A stretch of DNA of 64,000 nucleotides from Phycisphaerae bacterium. GTDB lineage: Bacteria; Planctomycetota; Phycisphaerae; Sedimentisphaerales; Anaerobacaceae. The notes beneath the pieces were generated by a model, which saw nothing but the letters and a program-made list of their open reading frames with translations, was not told where the DNA came from and did no database searches. Numbering within the stretch: position 1 is the stretch's first letter; every line of letters begins with the position of its first letter. The position numbers were made by a program, and so were the translations under genes. This document shows, one piece after another, positions 22,700-64,000 of this stretch. Where the stretch lies: NCBI GenBank assembly GCA_017993835.1, contig JAGOLX010000002.1, positions 1-64,000 of the forward strand, written 5' to 3'.

Positions 22700-23380
22700 T
22701 CAGTGTCGTGCGGCTAGTCGGGCGACGGCCCGCTGGATTTCATCGGGATGCTGACAGATGTCGTCCGGCCCCGCGGCGGCGATCTCCGCTTCGCTGCCGA
22801 AGCCGTAGGTCACGCCGATCGTGCGGGTCCCGTGGTCCTTGCCCGATTCGATATCGCGGGCCCGGTCTCCGATCATGACGGTCCGGCCCGGGTCGAGCGA
22901 CAGCTCACACAGGAGGTGTCCGATGAGTTCGCTCTTCTCATCGAAGCGTCCGTCGAGCTGCGGGCCGAAGACCTTGAGGAAGAAGCGGTCGAATCCGAAC
23001 CGCTCGATGATCCGGTCCGAGTAGACCGTCGGTTTGGAGGTGACCACGTAGAGCCGGTGGCCGTCCGTGTGCAGTCGCTCGAGCAGCTCGGGCACGCCGG
23101 GATAGACGACGTTCTCGAAGAGCCCGATGTCGCCATACCGCACCCGGTAGAAACCCACGGCCCTGTCGATCAGGTCCTTGTCCTCGCTGCCCAGCAGGCG
23201 GGGGAACGTCCATCGCAGTGGCGGACCGATGAACTGCACGAGCTCAGCCTTGGGAGGTTGCGCCCGGCCCAGGTTCTTGAGCGCGTACTGGATGCACCGC
23301 GTGATCCCGTCGCTGGGATCGCTCAATGTCCCGTCGAGGTCAAAGAACAAAATGAGAGGTTCACGAATCGTTTCGGTCAT
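22700..23380 (-). CDS. HAD family hydrolase, phosphoglycolate phosphatase-like
   Basis: 226 residues from the ATG at 23380 (MTETIREPLI). HAD motif I is FFDLDGTLSD, motif II the serine/threonine in YVVTSKPT, motif III the lysine in the SDRIIERF region and motif IV GRTVMIGDRARDIESGK. The helical cap follows motif I as in the Gph/PGMB subgroup. It probably dephosphorylates a small sugar phosphate such as 2-phosphoglycolate or pyrophosphate in the cytosol. Encoded alone, divergent from nothing obvious. Confidence 0.88.
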   Translation of the reverse strand: MTETIREPLILFFDLDGTLSDPSDGITRCIQYALKNLGRAQPPKAELVQFIGPPLRWTFPRLLGSEDKDLIDRAVGFYRVRYGDIGLFENVVYPGVPELLERLHTDGHRLYVVTSKPTVYSDRIIERFGFDRFFLKVFGPQLDGRFDEKSELIGHLLCELSLDPGRTVMIGDRARDIESGKDHGTRTIGVTYGFGSEAEIAAAGPDDICQHPDEIQRAVARLAARH

Positions 23381-23475: not shown

Positions 23476-23937
23476 GCATGACCGTTGTTGCGGCCTCCCA
23501 CGGCGTAACGAGACATGGGCCGGACCCTGTCATTCCTGCACTGCAGTGGCGCAATATCTTGTTTTCTTAGCAAGCATTTTGGTCTGATCCGGTCGTCGCC
23601 TGCCTGGCATCGGGACCGCACCGTATGACCGGGGGCGCTGCCCCCGGGCCCCCGGCATTTTTCGCCTTCCGCCAGCAGCATGATGGGCAGACGTGTCGAG
23701 GGGCGAGTCCGGCGCTCCCGTTGCCCATGCCATTGGCCCAATGCGTCAAATGCCGGGGGTATGGGGGCGGCGCCCCCAAGAGACACGAGCGGACCCAAGA
23801 CCCGATGGTCCTGCGCTTTGGTTGCGGCCGAAGGCCGCTCCAAGAACGCAGGAATCCAGGAACCGCGGGATTGGGCGCAACCTGATGAATGGATTCCCGC
23901 GTTCGCGGGAATGACAATCCAGGGTCTTCGTGAGCCC
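23476..23937. repeat. dispersed repeat copy 1, split by a 308-bp nested insert
   Basis: Left part 23476-23539 and right part 23848-23937 match the sister copy at 26537-26695. In copy 1 the arms ATTCCTGC (23532-23539) and GCAGGAAT (23848-23855) are separated by 308 nt; in copy 2 they are only 5 nt apart. The insert 23540-23847 has its own structure: hairpins at 23631-23645 and 23763-23777, and 12-bp arms 23649-23660/23748-23759. This fills the gene-free space between the HAD gene and the next gene. Confidence 0.75.
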
Positions 23938-23977
23938 CGATGACACATGCGCAAGCACACTCATACGCGCCCGGCGT

Positions 23978-24379
23978 TCACGCGCGTTCGAGGGCGTCGA
24001 GGAGCGTGTGGCCGGCGGCGTGCAGTCTCTCAGTCTGCTCCGCGAGGTGGTCCAAGTCCTTCGCCGATTCGACGGCTCGGAGGATCTCCGTCACTTCCCC
24101 GGCGCCGTCGAGGGTGTCCAGGCTGTTGTTCTTCATCGTGGTCACGAGATGCTTGAGCCGATTCGCCAGCCGCCGGCGGAAGAAATCGAGCCGACTCGGA
24201 TCGAGGGCGCCGGCCTTGAAGGCGGGCTCGAACTCGTGGAAGGCGGTGCAGGCCTTCTGGAGATACAACAGGACCATTCCCTTGGCCGGATGGCCCTCGG
24301 CCAGCACCCTGGCCCACTGGAATTCCTCGTTTCGCCAGTGCTCGTCTTGAACGGTTGTCCGGTACTCGATGTCGCGCAT
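23978..24379 (-). CDS. hypothetical helical protein downstream of the metallo-beta-lactamase
   Basis: 133 residues from the ATG at 24379 (MRDIEYRTTV), 8 nt after the stop of the metallo-beta-lactamase gene. It is largely helical, with HWRNEEFQWARVLAEGHPAK, a helix LVTTMKNNSLDTLDGAGEVT and a basic patch RLDFFRRRLANRLKHL. I recognise no family or catalytic motif. The tight spacing suggests an operon with the metallo-beta-lactamase, but a functional link is not shown. Confidence 0.65.
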   Translation of the reverse strand: MRDIEYRTTVQDEHWRNEEFQWARVLAEGHPAKGMVLLYLQKACTAFHEFEPAFKAGALDPSRLDFFRRRLANRLKHLVTTMKNNSLDTLDGAGEVTEILRAVESAKDLDHLAEQTERLHAAGHTLLDALERA

Positions 24380-24387
24380 GGTCGGTC

Positions 24388-25176
24388 TCAGGGTTTGGCC
24401 TTCGGGGGGGCGCACAGTTCCAGCGTGTGTTGAATCAGTTCGGGACCGCCCCAGTCGCCGTGGCCGGGCACGACGATCTTGGCATGACGGTAGGTGGCCT
24501 GCACCTTGCGGAGCGTGGCCGGATAGGCCGCCAGGTCGCCGTCGGTGGTGTTGCCGAGCGACTGGGAATCCATGGACTTGATGAGGCAGCCCCCGAACAG
24601 GACCTGCTTCTGGGGCAGCCAGACTACGACGTTGTCGGTCGTGTGTCCGGACCCGAAGTACGTCGCGAGGGCGACCGTGCCGGCACAATGGACCATCGTG
24701 CGGAACCGGTAGGGAATCTGTGGGACCGGCAGGTGCTTCTGCCTGGCAATCTCGACAGTCTGGTCCAGGCCGTAGGAGACCGCCCCTCGCCGATGGGCCT
24801 CCTCCAGGCCGCCCATGCAGTCCTGGTGCCAGTGCGTCGGGACTACCGTCTTCACAGTCGCACCCTGGTTCCGCGCGAGCCAATCGCACAGCGTCGCGGT
24901 CAGTTCGTCCGTCCAGGGCAGGTCGATCAGCAGGGCATCATTGCTGTCGACGACGACGAGCCCGTTCGCTGGGCAGCGCCCGTAGTTGGGCAGATCGTAG
25001 TAGGTGGTGTGTACCCAGACGCCGGGGGCGATGGGCTGCACGAAGACATCGTCCGAGATGCGGATGCTCTCGGCTCGGGGCGCCGGCTGCGAAGACTGGC
25101 AGCCGCCCGCCAGGACACACGCACAAGTGATGATGACACACAGTCCTCGCTGAGCGCTCGGTGAGTGACCAGTCAT
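24388..25176 (-). CDS. subclass B1-like metallo-beta-lactamase lipoprotein
   Basis: 262 residues. The N-terminus is a signal peptide ending LAGGC (cysteine 26), so it is likely a lipoprotein, though the -3 residue is Ala. All six B1-type zinc ligands can be placed: H115 and H117 and D119 in THWHQDC, H178 in GSGHTTDN, C197 in FGGCLIKS and H239 in PGHGDWGG. Also present are the B1 substrate lysine (K200) and the asparagine loop SLGNTTDGD near 206-214. The order and spacing match clinical B1 enzymes, with Cys at the position after D119. GGAGAAC precedes the ATG. Hydrolysis of beta-lactams is expected but unproven. Confidence 0.88.
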   Translation of the reverse strand: MTGHSPSAQRGLCVIITCACVLAGGCQSSQPAPRAESIRISDDVFVQPIAPGVWVHTTYYDLPNYGRCPANGLVVVDSNDALLIDLPWTDELTATLCDWLARNQGATVKTVVPTHWHQDCMGGLEEAHRRGAVSYGLDQTVEIARQKHLPVPQIPYRFRTMVHCAGTVALATYFGSGHTTDNVVVWLPQKQVLFGGCLIKSMDSQSLGNTTDGDLAAYPATLRKVQATYRHAKIVVPGHGDWGGPELIQHTLELCAPPKAKP

Positions 25177-25527
25177 ATCCGTTCTCCGGTAGAAGTCCGT
25201 TTCTTCGGCGCGACCCTGAACGTCCGGGTCCGCGCCGAGTCCATCACAGCATAACCTCTATCCCAGGACGACCGCGGAGTCAAGATGCCGGACACGATGA
25301 GGACTGGAGAGGACGCATGACCGTACCTGCGCATGTGCAACAGGGTTCACGAAGACCCTGGATTGTCATTCCCGCCTCCCGTCGTGTCATTCCCGCGAAG
25401 CGCAAGAACGATCACGCACCCGGCTCGAGAGGCGATTGCGTTCTCCGACCGATGGCCTACAATGGCGGTCGCTGTCGCCCTGTGGGGGCGGCTCGTCGTT
25501 TGGCCGGGAATCCGTTAGGGGAAACTC
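25177..25527. other. intergenic region containing an inverted, truncated dispersed repeat (copy 3)
   Basis: No gene in 351 nt. Positions 25347-25375 are an exact 29-nt reverse complement of 23905-23933 at the right end of copy 1. Two ATTCCCGC-type palindromic halves follow. Promoters for both flanking genes must lie here but none is distinct. Confidence 0.65.
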
Positions 25528-26523
25528 ATGAACGCAAGCACGATCGTCCTGTGTCTCGCTTTGTCCTCCATTGTGTTTGGAGGCACAGGCGCACAACCCG
25601 AGATGTACTACACAGACACGTCCCACGGGCGGTCGCTGGCCAAGGACCCCGATGTGGAGTGGTTCAAGGGGCGGTATCTGATGTACTACTCGGTGAACCG
25701 AGGCACGGATGGATGGGCGGTCGGCGTCGCGGAGAGCACCGACCTGACGCACTGGACGAAGGTGGGCGAGGTCCTGCCGGCGGGCGGTTGTGAGAGCAAG
25801 GGGCTCGCCGCACCCGCTGCGATGGTTCGCAACGACAGACTCCACCTGTTCTACCAGACCTATGGCAATGGACGGAACGACGCGATCTGCCACGCGGTCT
25901 CCGAGGACGGAATCCACTTCACCCGCAACGCGACGAATCCCATCTTCAAGCCTACAGGCGACTGGAATTGCGGGCGGGCCATCGATGCTGATGTGATCGA
26001 GCACGAGGGCCGCCTGCTGCTATACTGCGCCACGCGCGACCCGGAGATGAAGGTTCAGAAGCTCGTCGTCGCCTGGGCGCCGGCGGACTCGGACTATGGG
26101 CGGGACAAGTGGACCCAGTTGTGCAACGCGTCGATCCTCGAACCACAACTGCCGTGGGAGAGGAAGTGCATCGAGGCTCCCTCGGTCTGCAAGCACGAGG
26201 GCCGGCTGTTCATGTTCTATGCCGGCGGGTACAACAACGAGCCGCAGCAGATCGGCTGTGCCGTCAGTGCCGACGGCGTCTCCTGGACGCGGCTCTCCCA
26301 GGAACCACTGCTGCCCAACGGCGACGCGGGCGAATGGAACGCCAGCGAGTCCGGCCATCCCGGCGTCTTCACCGATCGCGACGGACAGATGCACCTGTTC
26401 TTCCAGGGCAACAGCGACAAGGGCGCGAGCTGGCATCTGTCCAGGATGAAGATCGCCTGGGACGGGACAGGCAACCCTTGTCTGCTCCGCCCGGGCGATG
26501 CGAGGGTCTTCAGGCTCCGGTGA
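25528..26523 (+). CDS. secreted five-bladed beta-propeller glycosidase-like protein
   Basis: 331 residues with a signal peptide (STIVLCLALSSIVFGGTGA). The body has repeated blade motifs: DPDVEWFKGRYLMYYSVNRG, GLAAPAAMVRNDRLHLFYQT, DADVIEHEGRLLLYCATRD, EAPSVCKHEGRLFMFYAGG and SGHPGVFTDRDGQMHLFFQG. This is the pattern of GH43/GH32/GH130-type propellers; the acidic residues that open each blade are the likely catalytic set. The exact GH family cannot be fixed by eye. AGGGGAAACTC precedes the start. It could act on extracellular plant or algal glycans. Confidence 0.75.
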   Translation: MNASTIVLCLALSSIVFGGTGAQPEMYYTDTSHGRSLAKDPDVEWFKGRYLMYYSVNRGTDGWAVGVAESTDLTHWTKVGEVLPAGGCESKGLAAPAAMVRNDRLHLFYQTYGNGRNDAICHAVSEDGIHFTRNATNPIFKPTGDWNCGRAIDADVIEHEGRLLLYCATRDPEMKVQKLVVAWAPADSDYGRDKWTQLCNASILEPQLPWERKCIEAPSVCKHEGRLFMFYAGGYNNEPQQIGCAVSADGVSWTRLSQEPLLPNGDAGEWNASESGHPGVFTDRDGQMHLFFQGNSDKGASWHLSRMKIAWDGTGNPCLLRPGDARVFRLR

Positions 26524-26536
26524 TCTCGACCGGCGT

Positions 26537-26695
26537 GCATGACCGTTGTTGCGACCTCCCGTAGAGTGACGAGGCGTTGCCCCGCAGTTGTCATTCCTGC
26601 GTCAAGCAGGAATCCAGGAACCGCAGCGTGCGACGTGTCCCAGGAAGTGGATTCCCGCTCCGCGGGAATGACATTCCGGGGTTTCCATGAATCCT
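26537..26695. repeat. dispersed repeat copy 2 (uninterrupted)
   Basis: Starts with the 24-nt block 26537-26560 (23 of 24 identical to 23476-23499), carries the hairpin ATTCCTGC-GTCAA-GCAGGAAT (26593-26613) and ends with the palindrome ATTCCCGC-TCC-GCGGGAAT. It is the reference form for copy 1. Confidence 0.75.
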
Positions 26696-27286: not shown

Positions 27287-27691
27287 TCATCCGCGAACGA
27301 ACTCGGCCAGGGATACGGCCGCATCAGGGAATTGACGCAGGATCTGTCTGTCGACCGTGACCAGCGGGATGTCCAGGTCCTTGGCCAGTGCAACGAACTC
27401 GCAATCGTAAGCCGAGCAGGTGCTTGCGGCGGCCAGTGCAAGAATTTGATGGGACGCCGTCTCATACTCACGACCCCGCATCATGTGCAGGGCTTCTCCC
27501 ATCACCTGTTGGGCATCTGCCAGGCCAAGCAGCTTCTTTCGAATGTAAAGGGTTAGTACGCTGCGCAGTTCACTTCGCCAGAGCAAGGGGGCTGCCCACA
27601 ACGGGTCTCTCGAGAACGCTTGCTCTGCCTGCGTGGAATGGTCGCTGGCCAGATACAGGTACCCAATGACGTTTGTATCGACGACAATCAT
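27287..27691 (-). CDS. vapC: PIN-domain toxin (VapC/FitB type)
   Basis: 134 residues from the ATG at 27691, which overlaps the antitoxin stop by the bases ATGA. The PIN acidic residues are visible: IVVDTNVIGYLY (first Asp), ELRSVL (Glu), SAYDCEFVALA (Asp) and LVTVDRQI (Asp), so the nuclease site looks complete. It cuts RNA, and is neutralised by the upstream ribbon-helix-helix protein. Confidence 0.88.
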   Translation of the reverse strand: MIVVDTNVIGYLYLASDHSTQAEQAFSRDPLWAAPLLWRSELRSVLTLYIRKKLLGLADAQQVMGEALHMMRGREYETASHQILALAAASTCSAYDCEFVALAKDLDIPLVTVDRQILRQFPDAAVSLAEFVRG

Positions 27692-27930
27692 GGGCGACCC
27701 GCCGCCTTCGCTCGGGTAAATTCGCGATCGGTGATCGGATGGGCCGTCGTCCTCTCTCGCAGTCTGCGGGCGTTGGCCAGCACCAACTCCGGGTCGATCT
27801 CCTGCGAGCTGACGGCCCGCTCGATACACGCGATGATCTCGCTGTTGATGCTGCGATGACTGATCTCGGCAGCCCTCTTGAGCTTCTCATAGACCTCGGC
27901 TGGGATGTTCTTCACAGTAATCGTCGCCAT
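27688..27930 (-). CDS. vapB: FitA/VapB-type ribbon-helix-helix antitoxin
   Basis: 80 residues from the ATG at 27930 (MATITVKNIPAEVYEKLKRA), an Arc/FitA-like ribbon-helix-helix DNA-binding domain, followed by AEISHRSINSEIIACIERAV and an acidic, toxin-binding tail. It overlaps the PIN gene by four bases. The 10-bp inverted repeat 10 nt upstream of its start is the likely autoregulatory operator. Confidence 0.87.
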   Translation of the reverse strand: MATITVKNIPAEVYEKLKRAAEISHRSINSEIIACIERAVSSQEIDPELVLANARRLRERTTAHPITDREFTRAKAAGRP

Positions 27931-27940
27931 CGGGCTACTC

Positions 27941-27969
27941 CATAATGGTTCCAATATGAAACCATTATG
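27941..27969 (-). promoter_or_regulatory. operator of the FitAB/VapBC pair
   Basis: CATAATGGTT (27941-27950) and AACCATTATG (27960-27969) form a perfect 10-bp inverted repeat with a 9-nt spacer, immediately before the antitoxin start. The size and spacing suit two ribbon-helix-helix dimers or one tetramer. Confidence 0.75.
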
Positions 27970-52040: not shown

Positions 52041-53975
52041 GTGCGTATTGCCTTGGGACAATTCAACGCGACGGTCGGCGACCTGGCCGGCAACGTGGCG
52101 AAGATGAAGAAGATCTGGTCCGACGCCATGGCGTCGGGGGCGGACCTGGTGGCGTTTCCGGAGATGGCGATCTGCGGGTATCCGCCGGAAGACCTGGTGT
52201 ATAAAAAGCAGTTCGTTCGGGACAACCGTACGGCCCTGGAGGAACTGGCAGAAGCCTGCAATCGCGGGACGGTCGTCGTGGGCTTCGTCGAGGAAAAAGG
52301 CCCAGGCGACGTATCGGAAAAAGGCAGATCGGGCCTATATTCTTCAACGAAATCTCTTGGTTCGATTTCGTTGAAGAATGGAAACGACGAGACTCTCGAC
52401 GCACGACCGGGGTTTGAAGGGGAAAAATCGAAGAGGGAGATTTTTCCCCCTCAAAGTAGGCCCGATCTGCCTTTTTCCGATCCGGGAGATGCCTCCGGCC
52501 TGTACAACGCCGCCGCGGTGATCCAGAAGGGTCGGATCGTGCACACGTATCACAAGTGCAGCCTGCCCAACTACAGCGTCTTCGACGAGCAGCGGTACTT
52601 CCAGGCGGGTGACCGGCCGGTCGTCGTGACCGTCCAGGGCCTGCGCGTCGCGGTCACCATCTGCGAGGATCTCTGGCATCCCCAGCGACTGACCGATCTG
52701 CTCCTGGGCGTCGGGCGGATCCACCTGCTGTTGAACATCTCGGCTTCGCCCTTCGACGTGGACAAGCTGGCCCTGAGGAACGAAGTCATCGCGAAGTGCT
52801 CGGACGCCTTCGACTGCGCGGTCGCATACTGCAACCTGATCGGCGGCCAGGACGAGCTGGTCTTCGATGGTCGGAGCACCGTGGTGGACTCGACCGGGCG
52901 AATCGCGGGCCGGGCCAGGGCATTCGACGAGGATCTACTGATCGCGGACGTCCGCGAGGATGCGGATGGGATTCAGGTGGAAGAACAGAAGGTGAGAAGG
53001 TCAGAGGGTGAGAAGGTCGGAGAGTCGGCTGTAAGCAACCGACGTTCGGGAGCCGACCTGACTGTCCGACCTTCTGACCTTCCAAACTTCTCACCTTCTT
53101 CTTCCGAGCCCGCGGACACGGTCAAGGAAGTCTACCAGGCCCTCGTGCTCGGACTGCGCGACTACGTCCTGAAGAACGGCTTCCGCCAGGTGATCCTCGG
53201 GATCAGCGGGGGGATCGATTCCGCGGTGACCGCGGCCATCGCCGCCGAGGCGCTGGGACCGCAGAACGTCCAGTGCGTGACCATGCCGTCGCGGTTCAAC
53301 AGTCCCGAGACGATCGCGGACTCCAAGCTCGTCGCGGACAACCTGGGCTGCCCCCTGCTGGCGATCCCGATCGAGCCGATCCTGGCGCCGTTCCACGCGT
53401 CGCTGAAGGCCGATCCCCGCTGGACGGACCGGGGCATCGCGTACGAGAACCTCCAGGCTCGCATTCGCGGCATGATCCTGATGTCCCTGAGCAACCAGGT
53501 GGGCTCGCTGGTTCTGACCACGGGCAACAAGAGCGAGGTTTCCGTCGGGTACAGCACGCTCTACGGGGATTCCGCGGGCGGTTTCGGCGTCATCAAGGAC
53601 GTGCTCAAGACGATGGTCTACCAACTGGCCGAGTACATCAACAAGCGGGCGGGGCGGGAGGTAATCCCGGTCGCAGTCATCAAGCGGATTCCCAGCGCGG
53701 AGCTTCGTCCGAACCAGAAAGACACGGACTCGCTGCCCGACTATGATCTGTTGGACCGGATCATCACAGGCTATGTGGAAGAGGACAAGTCCGCCCGCGA
53801 GCTGGTGGAATCGGGCCTGCCCGCCGCGACGGTCGAGCGGGTGATCCGAATGATCGACCGCAACGAGTACAAGAGGAGGCAGTCGGCGCCGGGGGTGCGG
53901 ATCACGCCGAAGGCCTTCGGCAAAGACCGCCGCCTGCCCATCACCAACCGTTACGGAAGCACGGGCGTCCGATGA
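52041..53975 (+). CDS. nadE: glutamine-dependent NAD+ synthase with two in-frame palindromic insertions
   Basis: 644 residues from the GTG at 52041 (VRIALGQFNATVGDLAGN), 9 nt after GGAG; the family is usually about 540-560. The glutaminase (nitrilase) domain has Glu in AFPEMAICGYPPEDL, Lys in TYHKCSLPNY and Cys in TICEDLWH. The synthetase domain has ILGISGGIDSAV. Two stretches are foreign: about residues 91-147, coded by the structured element 52313-52481, and about 313-355, coded by the element 52979-53105. Both fall in a loop or linker and leave every catalytic motif intact, so the enzyme is probably functional. Overlaps the next gene by four bases. Confidence 0.92.
   Translation: MRIALGQFNATVGDLAGNVAKMKKIWSDAMASGADLVAFPEMAICGYPPEDLVYKKQFVRDNRTALEELAEACNRGTVVVGFVEEKGPGDVSEKGRSGLYSSTKSLGSISLKNGNDETLDARPGFEGEKSKREIFPPQSRPDLPFSDPGDASGLYNAAAVIQKGRIVHTYHKCSLPNYSVFDEQRYFQAGDRPVVVTVQGLRVAVTICEDLWHPQRLTDLLLGVGRIHLLLNISASPFDVDKLALRNEVIAKCSDAFDCAVAYCNLIGGQDELVFDGRSTVVDSTGRIAGRARAFDEDLLIADVREDADGIQVEEQKVRRSEGEKVGESAVSNRRSGADLTVRPSDLPNFSPSSSEPADTVKEVYQALVLGLRDYVLKNGFRQVILGISGGIDSAVTAAIAAEALGPQNVQCVTMPSRFNSPETIADSKLVADNLGCPLLAIPIEPILAPFHASLKADPRWTDRGIAYENLQARIRGMILMSLSNQVGSLVLTTGNKSEVSVGYSTLYGDSAGGFGVIKDVLKTMVYQLAEYINKRAGREVIPVAVIKRIPSAELRPNQKDTDSLPDYDLLDRIITGYVEEDKSARELVESGLPAATVERVIRMIDRNEYKRRQSAPGVRITPKAFGKDRRLPITNRYGSTGVR
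52313..52481 (+). repeat. palindromic element A1 inserted in frame in nadE
   Basis: 169 nt with perfect 25-bp terminal inverted arms (52313-52337 and 52457-52481). Inside are a perfect 16-bp hairpin (52339-52354/52364-52379) and an 11-bp hairpin (52419-52429/52439-52449). It codes for the extra residues 91-147 of NadE. A related inverted copy is at 60962-61194. Confidence 0.88.
52979..53105 (+). repeat. palindromic element D inserted in frame in nadE linker
   Basis: 127-nt imperfect palindrome made of GAGAAGGTC-type units on the left and their complements GACCTTCTCAC on the right, around AGTCGGCT/AGCCGACC. It codes for residues about 313-355 (QKVRRSEGEKVGESAVSNRR onward), between glutaminase and synthetase domains. 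Confidence 0.75.
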
Positions 53976-60927: not shown

Positions 60928-61021
60928 GCCGACATGGTAACGTCTGTTCTCGCCCGTTGCTCTGAAAAAGGCAGGTCGGGCCTACTGTGAGGGGGAAAAA
61001 TCTCCTGGCTCGGTTCTTCCC

Positions 61022-61067
61022 TGTGGCACCCCCGCCCTCGGGGGTGTTCCGTCCCCAGCCGGGGGCG
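61022..61067 (+). repeat. element B, copy inside A2
   Basis: 46 nt with CACCCCC and GGGGGTG arms. It matches the reverse complement of 62246-62291 at 42 of 46 positions without gaps. Confidence 0.8.
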
Positions 61068-61150
61068 GCTGGGCTACATGGGCCTTCCCCAGCCGGGGGC
61101 GGCTGGGCTACATGGGCCTTCCCCAGCCGAGGGCGGCTGGGCTACGAGCC
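61053..61150 (+). repeat. 34-nt tandem repeat, about 2.9 units
   Basis: Units begin at 61053, 61087 and 61121 with CCCCAGCCGGGGGCGGCTGG (third unit has one change) followed by GCTACATGGGCCTT. Too few units and no separate spacers, so it is not a CRISPR array. Confidence 0.85.
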
Positions 61151-61340
61151 AAGAGATTTCGTTGAAGAATATAGGCCCGACCTGCCTTTTCCGACGATCC
61201 GCAAGGAACGTGGATCTGAGAAAGGGCCGGAATCTGCCGAAGAGCGTTTCCCCGCGTCTGCCGATTCGGCTATGATGGGCTGCGTCGAACGACAGGCGGT
61301 GATTGAGGAACAGGAGAATGGCTCAGAGGGGTGCATTCGT

Positions 61341-64000
61341 ATGCCCATATTCGCTCGAATCGCAACGGTCGTGCTGGCAATGCAGGTTGTCTCAGGTGTG
61401 CTGGTCGCACAGCAGACGCAGCAGCTCGTCACTGTGCTGGAGGCGAAGATCCCCCAACTGATGGAGGCCGAGCACGTGCCGGGCCTGTCTATGGTTCTCA
61501 TTCGCGACGGTCGCATCGCCTGGAAAGGCGTTTTTGGCGTTCGCACTGCGGGCAAGCCCGAGAAGGTGGATGACGAGACGGTCTTCGAGGCCGCGTCGAT
61601 GAGCAAGCCTGTCTTCTCCTACGCGGTCCTCAAGCTGGTCGAGGAGGGTCGATTCGACCTCGACCGCCCGCTGGACAGTTATCTCCCCGAGCCCTACCTG
61701 CCCGACCAGCCCCTGGCCAAGCAGATCACCGGCCGGATGGTCTTGCTTCACCGGACCGGATTGCCCAACTGGCGCGAGGGCGGCTGGCGAAAGGGCGGAC
61801 CCCTGAAGGTGCTGCACGAGCCGGGGACGCGGTTCACCTACTCGGGCGAAGGCTACACGTATCTGCAAACCGTGATCGCGCATCTGACGGGACAATCCGT
61901 CGATGTCTGGATGGACCAGGCGTTGCTCGGGCCCTTGAACATGATGCGAAGCAGCTACGTCTGGCGTCCATCTCTGGAGAACAACTACGCCGGCGGGCAC
62001 GACAAGGATGGGAACCTCAAGCCGTCGCGTCGATTTTACGACCTGGGCAATGCCGCCTTCTCTCTCTACACCACGCCCACGGACTACGCGCTGTTCCTGA
62101 TCGAGATGATGAAGCCGGACCGCTCCGCGCCTCATTCGCTCAAGGCTGAGACGCTCGAAGGGATGACGACCTTGCAGGTCCAGCCCGAGGAGGGGGATGA
62201 CCAGTCGCGTCGCTCGCTCGGATGGGTGATCGCCCGTGGCCCAGTCGCCCCCGGCTGGGGGAAGAACACCCCCGCGGGCGGGGGTGCCACATGGGTCTGT
62301 CACAGCGGCAGCAACGGGACCGGCTTTCGATGCACTTGCCGTTTCGATCCGAAGCGCCAGTCGGGCTGCGTCATCATGACCAACTCCGACAGCGGCGTCA
62401 AAGTCTGGGAGTCCATCCTGGCAATGATCGACTCGATGGCCCCTGAGAACAAGCCGCAGATCGCGGCGGGCAGGGAAACCACTTGGGGACCCATTCAGCG
62501 GACGATCAAGTATGAGTACCGCGTCATGAACACCACGTCGAAGGCCGCCGGCAAGATCGACGTCTTCGTGCCCTTGCCGCTGGAGTCCCCCCGCCAGGAG
62601 ATCCGCTACCTGCACCTCTCGGAGCGGGGCCAGCAACGCGTCTTCACCGACGTACACGGCCAGAAGCTGGCCCACTACTCGTTCGACAGTCTCGAACCAG
62701 GCGGCTGGATCGACCTCGGCTTCGTTGTCGGCATCACCCTGCGGAACATGCGATGGAACGCGGGACTGCCGGCAGACGCCAACGCCCCAGTCCTCACGCC
62801 CGAGCAGAGACAGCGGTATCTGAAGCCCGAGACGAACTACTCGATGGATGACGAGTCGATGCGCAGGATCGCCGCCGACCTGACGCGCGATGCGACGAGC
62901 GACCTCGACAAGCTGACGAGGATCCACGACTACATCATCGGCAAGATCCGCTACGTCCGCGACAATACGTGGGACCCCGCGGCGGCAGTGCTCGCCCGCG
63001 GGACGGGGTCGTGCAGCGAGTACAACTACGTGCTCTGTGGATTGTGTCGCCTGGCGGGCCTGCCGACGCGGAGCGTGGGGGGCACCAGCAGCGGGTTCCG
63101 CGACCTTCCCACGACGGATTGCGTCTTCCATCGCTGGACCGAGGTCTTCCTGACCGGCTATGGCTGGTTCCCTGCCGACTGTTCCCGAGACGCCAACCCG
63201 ATCCGTGGCAAGAGGAGCCACTTCGGGCGCGTCTACCACGATGCGATGATCTGGTGCCGCCAGGCAGGCGGCGAGGACGACTCGCTCGGCTGGGAATACC
63301 GCGCCAAGCTCCGCGTCGAAGGGGACGACCCCGGCCTCCAGGAGGACCATCGCACCCGCTGGTTCGAGTTCCAGCCCGACGAACAGGTCGAGGCGGCGTA
63401 TGCCTGGTTTCTGGACGGGGGCCAGACTGCACCGCCAGCGGACCTCCTGGAATGCGCCCTGCTCCGCTGGGAGAAGGCCGGCGCAGACAACCGCCTGAAG
63501 ATGATCCGCGCGTTGGCCGCGTCGGGACGCAACGAGTGCCTCCGTCGGGCCGCGACTCTGCCCGAGGCGGATGGACTGCGAGAAACCTGCATGCGAGAGC
63601 TGTGCGACAGTGCGGAACTGGCGACAGTGGCTCTGGAGAACAGCCGCCAGCTCTTCCGCTTCCGCTCGTGGTTCAGGAGCAACGAAGCTGATCTGCTCGC
63701 GACGGGCGACGGCCGGTTCAAGCTGGCGAAGAAGACCCAGAAGTCCCAGACGCCCGTTACCACCGCTCGCTCCTCGCAGATCTGGACGGACCTCGCGGCG
63801 GAGGTGGTGGACCGGCTGGCCGATTCAGTCCCCGTTGGCGAGGGCAAGACTGTCGTCGTGATGCCTCTGGAAGACCAGACCCTCGCCGGCCTAGGCGACA
63901 CGCGCGTGTCCCTGCACGAAACCTTGGAGGATCTGATCTCTCGGAAGATGGCGGTCACGCTCCTCGACGAGGTCCGCTTCGACCAACTGATGCAGGAGCA
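61341..64000 (+). CDS. secreted serine beta-lactamase-fold / transglutaminase fusion (3' end outside window)
   Basis: 887 residues visible, running off the end. Start ATG at 61341 follows AGAGGGG; the N-terminus (PIFARIATVVLAMQVVSGVL) is a signal peptide. Residues 25-390 are a class C beta-lactamase/PBP4-type domain: SxxK is SMSK (86-89), the tyrosine motif is in FTYSGEGYTY and the third motif is CHSGSNGTG. Residues about 415-650 are a transglutaminase-like domain with Cys558 (GSCSEYN), His597 (VFHRWTEVF) and Asp near 613 (WFPADCS). The visible end (VVVMPLEDQTLAGLG) begins a further domain. Residues about 302-318 come from repeat element B. Confidence 0.88.
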   Translation, partial: MPIFARIATVVLAMQVVSGVLVAQQTQQLVTVLEAKIPQLMEAEHVPGLSMVLIRDGRIAWKGVFGVRTAGKPEKVDDETVFEAASMSKPVFSYAVLKLVEEGRFDLDRPLDSYLPEPYLPDQPLAKQITGRMVLLHRTGLPNWREGGWRKGGPLKVLHEPGTRFTYSGEGYTYLQTVIAHLTGQSVDVWMDQALLGPLNMMRSSYVWRPSLENNYAGGHDKDGNLKPSRRFYDLGNAAFSLYTTPTDYALFLIEMMKPDRSAPHSLKAETLEGMTTLQVQPEEGDDQSRRSLGWVIARGPVAPGWGKNTPAGGGATWVCHSGSNGTGFRCTCRFDPKRQSGCVIMTNSDSGVKVWESILAMIDSMAPENKPQIAAGRETTWGPIQRTIKYEYRVMNTTSKAAGKIDVFVPLPLESPRQEIRYLHLSERGQQRVFTDVHGQKLAHYSFDSLEPGGWIDLGFVVGITLRNMRWNAGLPADANAPVLTPEQRQRYLKPETNYSMDDESMRRIAADLTRDATSDLDKLTRIHDYIIGKIRYVRDNTWDPAAAVLARGTGSCSEYNYVLCGLCRLAGLPTRSVGGTSSGFRDLPTTDCVFHRWTEVFLTGYGWFPADCSRDANPIRGKRSHFGRVYHDAMIWCRQAGGEDDSLGWEYRAKLRVEGDDPGLQEDHRTRWFEFQPDEQVEAAYAWFLDGGQTAPPADLLECALLRWEKAGADNRLKMIRALAASGRNECLRRAATLPEADGLRETCMRELCDSAELATVALENSRQLFRFRSWFRSNEADLLATGDGRFKLAKKTQKSQTPVTTARSSQIWTDLAAEVVDRLADSVPVGEGKTVVVMPLEDQTLAGLGDTRVSLHETLEDLISRKMAVTLLDEVRFDQLMQE
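62246..62291 (-). repeat. element B, copy inserted in frame in the beta-lactamase/transglutaminase gene
   Basis: Reverse complement of 61022-61067, 42 of 46 positions identical. It codes for VAPGWGKNTPAGGGGAT, just before the catalytic CHSGSNG motif. The CACCCCCGC/GCGGGGGTG arms give a 9-bp hairpin. Confidence 0.85.

Follow-up and report, generated by a model that had tools for sequence, protein, structure and literature searches.

The window analysed here is a 64,000-nt stretch of the genome of an uncultured Phycisphaerae bacterium (Planctomycetota); in what follows, G-labels denote genomes and L-labels extracted loci or sequences. The gene of interest is a single open frame of 262 aa with an ATG start on the reverse strand, and it is followed by orfB, which encodes a small predicted helical protein, and by a HAD-type phosphatase gene (Table 1). 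A TTGACT hexamer upstream may act as the -35 element of a promoter, as its partial conservation among the aligned upstream regions suggests. The enzyme gene and orfB are together enclosed by an inverted pair of 38-nt repeats, in agreement with the preliminary description of this DNA, which placed the gene between dispersed repeats. Two further features of the window lie away from the enzyme gene. An overlapping toxin-antitoxin-like pair, consisting of a PIN-domain protein and a FitA-like ribbon-helix-helix protein, occupies 27287-27954 (-). Long repeats, both direct and inverted, occur as a set at 52310-52484, 60961-61190 and 62236-62294. One 34-nt unit among them is repeated three times in tandem (61049-61150), and a pair spaced 8.8 kb apart is 96% complementary.

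Table 1. Features of the enzyme locus and related loci; positions are those of the window unless preceded by a locus label.
Feature	Position	Strand	Basis or remark
Subclass B1 metallo-beta-lactamase, predicted lipoprotein	24388-25176	-	NF033088, CcrA best PDB match, tree
Signal peptide, lipobox-like end VLAGGC	25099-25176	-	Pattern scan
Zinc motif H115-W-H117-Q-D119-C120	24817-24834	-	BBL His116, His118, Asp120; BBL 121 is Cys
Zinc ligand H178 (BBL His196)	24643-24645	-	Motif scan and alignment
GGCLIKS: zinc ligand C197 (BBL Cys221) and Lys200 (BBL Lys224)	24574-24594	-	Motif scan and alignment
Zinc ligand H239 (BBL His263)	24460-24462	-	Motif scan and alignment
orfB, 133-aa predicted five-helix protein	23978-24379	-	8 nt past enzyme stop; AlphaFold pLDDT 79
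HAD-type phosphatase gene, conserved downstream neighbour	22700-23380	-	Pfam HAD_2
TTGACT, possible -35 element	25278-25283	-	TTGAC conserved in 4 of 7 aligned upstream regions
Dispersed repeat, left arm of 38-nt inverted pair	23905-23942	+	
Dispersed repeat, right arm of 38-nt inverted pair	25338-25375	-	
Zinc-ribbon-like lipoprotein gene (first of three genomes)	L084:5156-5557	-	
Zinc-ribbon-like lipoprotein gene (second genome)	L081:3651-3956		
Zinc-ribbon-like lipoprotein gene (third genome)	L085:3926-4246		

The enzyme is soundly identified as a subclass B1 metallo-beta-lactamase, with correct motifs and an ordinary explanation. The curated NCBIfam B1 model NF033088 matched with 255.7 bits (cut-off 200; E 3.4e-76), Pfam Lactamase_B also matched, and the closest PDB sequence was CcrA (E 3.8e-62), which again came out best (E 1.1e-23) in a fold search with an AlphaFold model of the enzyme built on seven sequences (pLDDT 73.6, with residues 204-213 and 240-244 poorly modelled). 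Given these sequence matches to NF033088 and CcrA and the dN/dS values described below, the B1 assignment is not a product of chance. The motifs follow one another in the order THWHQDCMGG, GSGH, GGCLIKS, SLGN and PGHG. Each of the six zinc ligands named in the preliminary description (H115, H117, D119, H178, C197 and H239) stands exactly at the residue given, the lysine it assigned within GGCLIKS (K200) is invariant across a seven-row alignment, and its GN loop was recovered as SLGN. All six genus members that carry the enzyme retain the six ligands, the lysine and Cys at BBL 121; one of them (G007) has AGC where GGC is expected. Subclass B3 enzymes use His at 121 as a zinc ligand and have no Cys221, and the present enzyme has Cys at both positions. 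It also has His at BBL 116, where Asn is the marker of subclass B2 (Berglund et al. 2017; PMC5637372). The curated model, the full set of B1 zinc ligands and the nesting with CfiA in the tree thus uphold subclass B1. None of the named B1 family models among the 25 best NCBIfam models reached its own cut-off: the second-best match was the DYB model (208.3 bits, cut-off 550), and the models for the CfiA/CcrA family sensu stricto (NF000322; 200.1 bits, cut-off 550) and for NDM (NF000259; 131.7 bits, cut-off 580) also fell short. Identity is 40.9% to CfiA2 over 220 residues and 33.1% to NDM-1.

The Cys that follows D119 had been singled out as unusual, a view that does not hold because CcrA/CfiA has the same residue (HWHGDC; HxHxDC in CfiA2). 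In CcrA numbering we take it to be Cys104. A Cys104Arg replacement in CcrA lowered activity and made one metal chelatable, according to a 2008 review (PMC2422870). Among the 33 sequences extracted, HxHxDC was present in 12 of the 31 readable motifs. A maximum-likelihood tree of 32 rows was built from 30 of the 33 extracted proteins and two PDB-derived fragments, leaving out L009 and L010 (fragments) and L111 (close to other rows). In it all 12 DC proteins fall on one side of a branch with support 98/96, and since the motif columns were kept in the tree, motif and clade are not independent of each other. The six genus members (100/99) are joined in this clade by two proteins from the same family (G015 and G374) and one from Neomarinimicrobiota (Fidelibacterota). 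CfiA2 forms a subclade there with one protein from Puniceicoccales and one from another planctomycete family (G092), so that beside CfiA its hosts are Planctomycetota, Verrucomicrobiota and Fidelibacterota. The phylogeny proposed earlier as a check, here with no B2 or B3 references among its rows, therefore places the enzyme inside B1 and nested with CfiA (98/96); it clusters with CcrA apart from the mobile B1 enzymes and BcII, and NDM/AFM, VIM, IMP and DIM lie outside the DC clade in groupings that are themselves weakly supported. Judged by its affinity to CcrA, the enzyme would belong to group B1-3, of whose published members CfiA2 alone was among the tree rows. The CcrA group was named B1-3 by Berglund et al. 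(2017; PMC5637372), who report hosts from Bacteroidetes only. With these results the CcrA-like branch of B1 carbapenemases gains hosts in Planctomycetota, beside members from Verrucomicrobiota and Fidelibacterota. Judging by titles and abstract openings, the open-access papers listed in our literature searches included no work on a B1 enzyme of Planctomycetota. In one member of the branch, L106 (G374), the GGC motif reads GGD (Asp at BBL 221) and Arg replaces Lys224, the other ligands being retained.

The lipobox-like signal of the preliminary description stood up in part. VLAGGC-Q agrees with a loose PS51257-type pattern. The window copy (AGGC) misses the strict form [LVI][ASTVI][GAS]C, as quoted in PMC10920655, because of the Ala at -3. 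If the signal is used, Cys26 would be the lipidated first residue of the mature protein and Gln27 the +2 residue. All six genus copies fit the loose pattern and three of them the strict one. The loose pattern is absent from G015, G374, CfiA2, the Puniceicoccales protein and G092, and L024 is cut at a contig end. Since it is missing from CfiA and from the closest relatives (G015 and G374), the lipobox probably arose separately from that of NDM. A B1 clade other than the NDM one is thereby seen to include a lipobox-type signal.

The enzyme is found in six of nine genomes of the genus; in the other three it was not found intact and is either dispensable there or was missed in incomplete assemblies. 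A survey of 89 genomes of the family gave 17 with a match at E <= 1e-15, of which eight are of the DC type (the six genus members, G015 and G374) and nine fall in a second, longer group. Of 392 Planctomycetota genomes sampled, no more than four passed the B1 cut-off. All 15 pairs of the six genus copies have NG86 dN/dS values of 0.15-0.34, many with dS above 1, which indicates purifying selection on the enzyme. Copies in the genus are 65-75% identical to the window copy, so residence in the genus is old. Decay can be followed at the same place. In G352, of a sister genus, a decayed copy (L085:4283-4540) lies just upstream of an intact orfB, and its translation clearly shows the signal and about 65 first residues, a frame break and a deletion that reaches the C-terminal residues. 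In G002, of the same genus as the window, 112 nt separate a zinc-ribbon gene from orfB; the first half of this gap beats all 200 shuffles in two of six comparisons (G005 and G007) and the second half in one of six (G005), moderate evidence that G002 probably holds a smaller enzyme remnant. The simplest history would place the enzyme in the common ancestor of both genera, followed by at least two losses. The gene is best explained as an old chromosomal gene of its host lineage that has been lost in some relatives, and at this one site it can be traced how a B1 gene was long retained and how it decayed.

The enzyme has the same neighbours in congeneric genomes, forming a conserved chromosomal neighbourhood. 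orfB comes directly after it in five of the six enzyme-bearing genomes of the genus, at a spacing of 1-8 nt, the exception being G004, where the HAD phosphatase gene comes straight after the enzyme. By tblastn the HAD gene is present at seven of eight loci that have the enzyme, a remnant or orfB (the window, G002, G004, G005, G006 and G352, and in part at a contig end in G007) and absent from G008. Neighbour genes were called with a crude codon-score script, which called none in L089 and missed orfB at several loci, so the neighbour lists are incomplete. A zinc-ribbon-like lipoprotein gene precedes the enzyme in G008, the decayed copy in G352 and orfB in G002; a fixed operon of such a lipoprotein and the zinc enzyme was considered and rejected, as tblastn finds the gene at no other searched locus. 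orfB itself occurs in 27 of the 89 family genomes; a profile search of 298 genomes sampled from the class recovered it in six, another family included. It has changed less than the enzyme within the genus (76-82% vs 65-75% identity to the window), and 46 of its 133 columns, including His14, Cys44, His48, His120 and His124, are invariant across the 17 sequences compared out of the 27. In seven of nine regions fetched from other genera its neighbour is a protein whose start is twin-arginine-like. orfB is hence not tied to this enzyme alone, their association being confined to this genus and, through the decayed copy, G352. The window orfB has no Pfam, PHROGs or PADLOC family, and its PDB comparisons peaked at E 0.37 (single sequence) and E 1.1 (profile). 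An NCBIfam match (E 0.08) was taken as noise, and the weak scattered matches obtained when 17 members were compared with Pfam (the best to TMIE, E 0.012, in 8 of the 17) were not believed. Foldseek gave a best E of 0.11, and the best VIA-align score (Z 10.5, to CCM3, 3w8i) is one that a common helical arrangement alone can give. A likeness to DinB/YfiT, suggested by the HxxxH in the last helix, was backed by no tool.

The repeats had been considered relevant to mobility, and a recently acquired resistance gene carried by them could account for the inverted pair, which is 92% complementary, and for the density of repeats here, with four exact cores within 2.8 kb where about 2 per 64 kb are expected (206 copies in 6.37 Mb). 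All six GCGGGAATGACA repeat copies of the 64-kb window (up to one mismatch) lie within 3.1 kb (23528-26673). The repeats are not specific to the gene and do not travel with it, as they would in a composite mobile element: a 26-nt core has 37 copies in the genome at up to three mismatches (control 0), the 12-nt core has 206 exact copies (controls 0 and 1), and no core within one mismatch is present at six of seven syntenic loci, the seventh (G007) having one. Relatives share the gene order, the segment between the repeats has kept its orientation with respect to the adjoining genes, no transposase or integrase was seen among the nine window proteins scanned, and the divergence of the genus copies speaks for old residence. 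We therefore consider recent acquisition very improbable. The claimed relevance to mobility is not supported, and since loci free of the core keep the gene order, the repeats are most likely later arrivals and provide no evidence of gene movement.

B1 enzymes with these residues bind two zinc ions and hydrolyse penicillins, cephalosporins and carbapenems in the periplasm. By analogy, the present enzyme would be exported, probably lipid-anchored in the cell envelope, with one zinc ion held by H115, H117 and H178 and the other by D119, C197 and H239; carrying over the mechanism of the B1 family, a zinc-activated water would open the beta-lactam ring while K200 holds the substrate carboxylate. 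In this way it may shield peptidoglycan synthesis from environmental beta-lactams, its gene being inherited next to orfB. We put the probability that it is, as a whole, a working CcrA-like B1 metallo-beta-lactamase and an old gene of its lineage at roughly 0.85, and judging from its residues it very probably hydrolyses beta-lactams. Berglund et al. (2017; PMC5637372) tested 21 new B1 genes in E. coli and saw imipenem hydrolysis with 18; two B1-3 genes (G24 and G65 of their table) were inactive in that assay. These two inactive genes, the low identity to CfiA2, the departure of the window copy from the strict lipobox and the three of nine genomes in which no intact copy was found count against our reading. 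An enzyme of the B1 fold that acts on an envelope metabolite, with weak or incidental beta-lactam hydrolysis, would suit the long residence in the genus, the scan of nine window proteins, which found no beta-lactamase regulator, and the operon-like link with orfB, which elsewhere in the family occurs without the enzyme beside it. It is unlikely, however, since the true B1 substrate-binding and zinc residues are all retained, the curated beta-lactamase model is passed and the enzyme gene decays while orfB stays.

A group of B1-like proteins with a different zinc site occurs at L107-L113, L008 and L011 (G347-G352, G363, G043 and G057), where BBL 116 is Gly and BBL 121 is Asn (e.g., GFHNDN) in all nine readable motifs; two further members are fragments. 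One of them, L110, has SPS-1 (6cqs) as its best PDB match (E 4.1e-50) and reaches 174.5 bits with NF033088 (cut-off 200), and in genus g252 all six sampled genomes have a match to this group. More speculatively, the enzyme and orfB could form a two-gene envelope-protection unit of this lineage in which orfB, a helical bundle with the invariant His and Cys residues listed above, is the metal-handling or regulatory partner, and g252, where at least one species retains the canonical enzyme only in decayed form and all six sampled genomes have an SPS-1-like enzyme without His116, could represent a natural swap of B1 zinc sites; we regard this as quite improbable.

Comparison with known systems also addresses the suggested link to the origin of clinical B1 enzymes. 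A direct source of an acquired enzyme such as NDM would share its subclass and lipoprotein-type signal, as is the case here, but identity to NDM-1 is only 33.1%, the lipobox is missing from G015, G374 and CfiA, and the position of NDM/AFM elsewhere in the tree contradicts such an origin, to which we give practically no chance. The enzyme groups with CcrA/CfiA and not with NDM, VIM, IMP or DIM, and the finding has no bearing on the origin of NDM, VIM or IMP. Lipidated B1 enzymes beyond NDM include CIM-1, CIM-2 and CJO-1, according to PMC10920655 and PMC12326980, and the present enzyme resembles all of these in its lipobox-type signal, here predicted from sequence; it differs from NDM in identity and tree branch, and CIM and CJO lie outside the sampling of the tree. 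DYB, also B1, is the second-best NCBIfam model, far under its cut-off. SPS-1 is likewise B1, with Gly replacing His116 (PMC5637372), whereas the window enzyme has His. The nearest known system is CcrA/CfiA of Bacteroides fragilis (B1-3). The present enzyme differs from it in its 40.9% identity, in scoring 200.1 of the 550 bits set for the CfiA model, in having a lipobox-like signal, which CfiA lacks, and in its planctomycete host, where B1-3 hosts were Bacteroidetes only in PMC5637372. It shares with CcrA/CfiA the six zinc ligands, the lysine, HxHxDC, the best sequence and fold match and a single clade.
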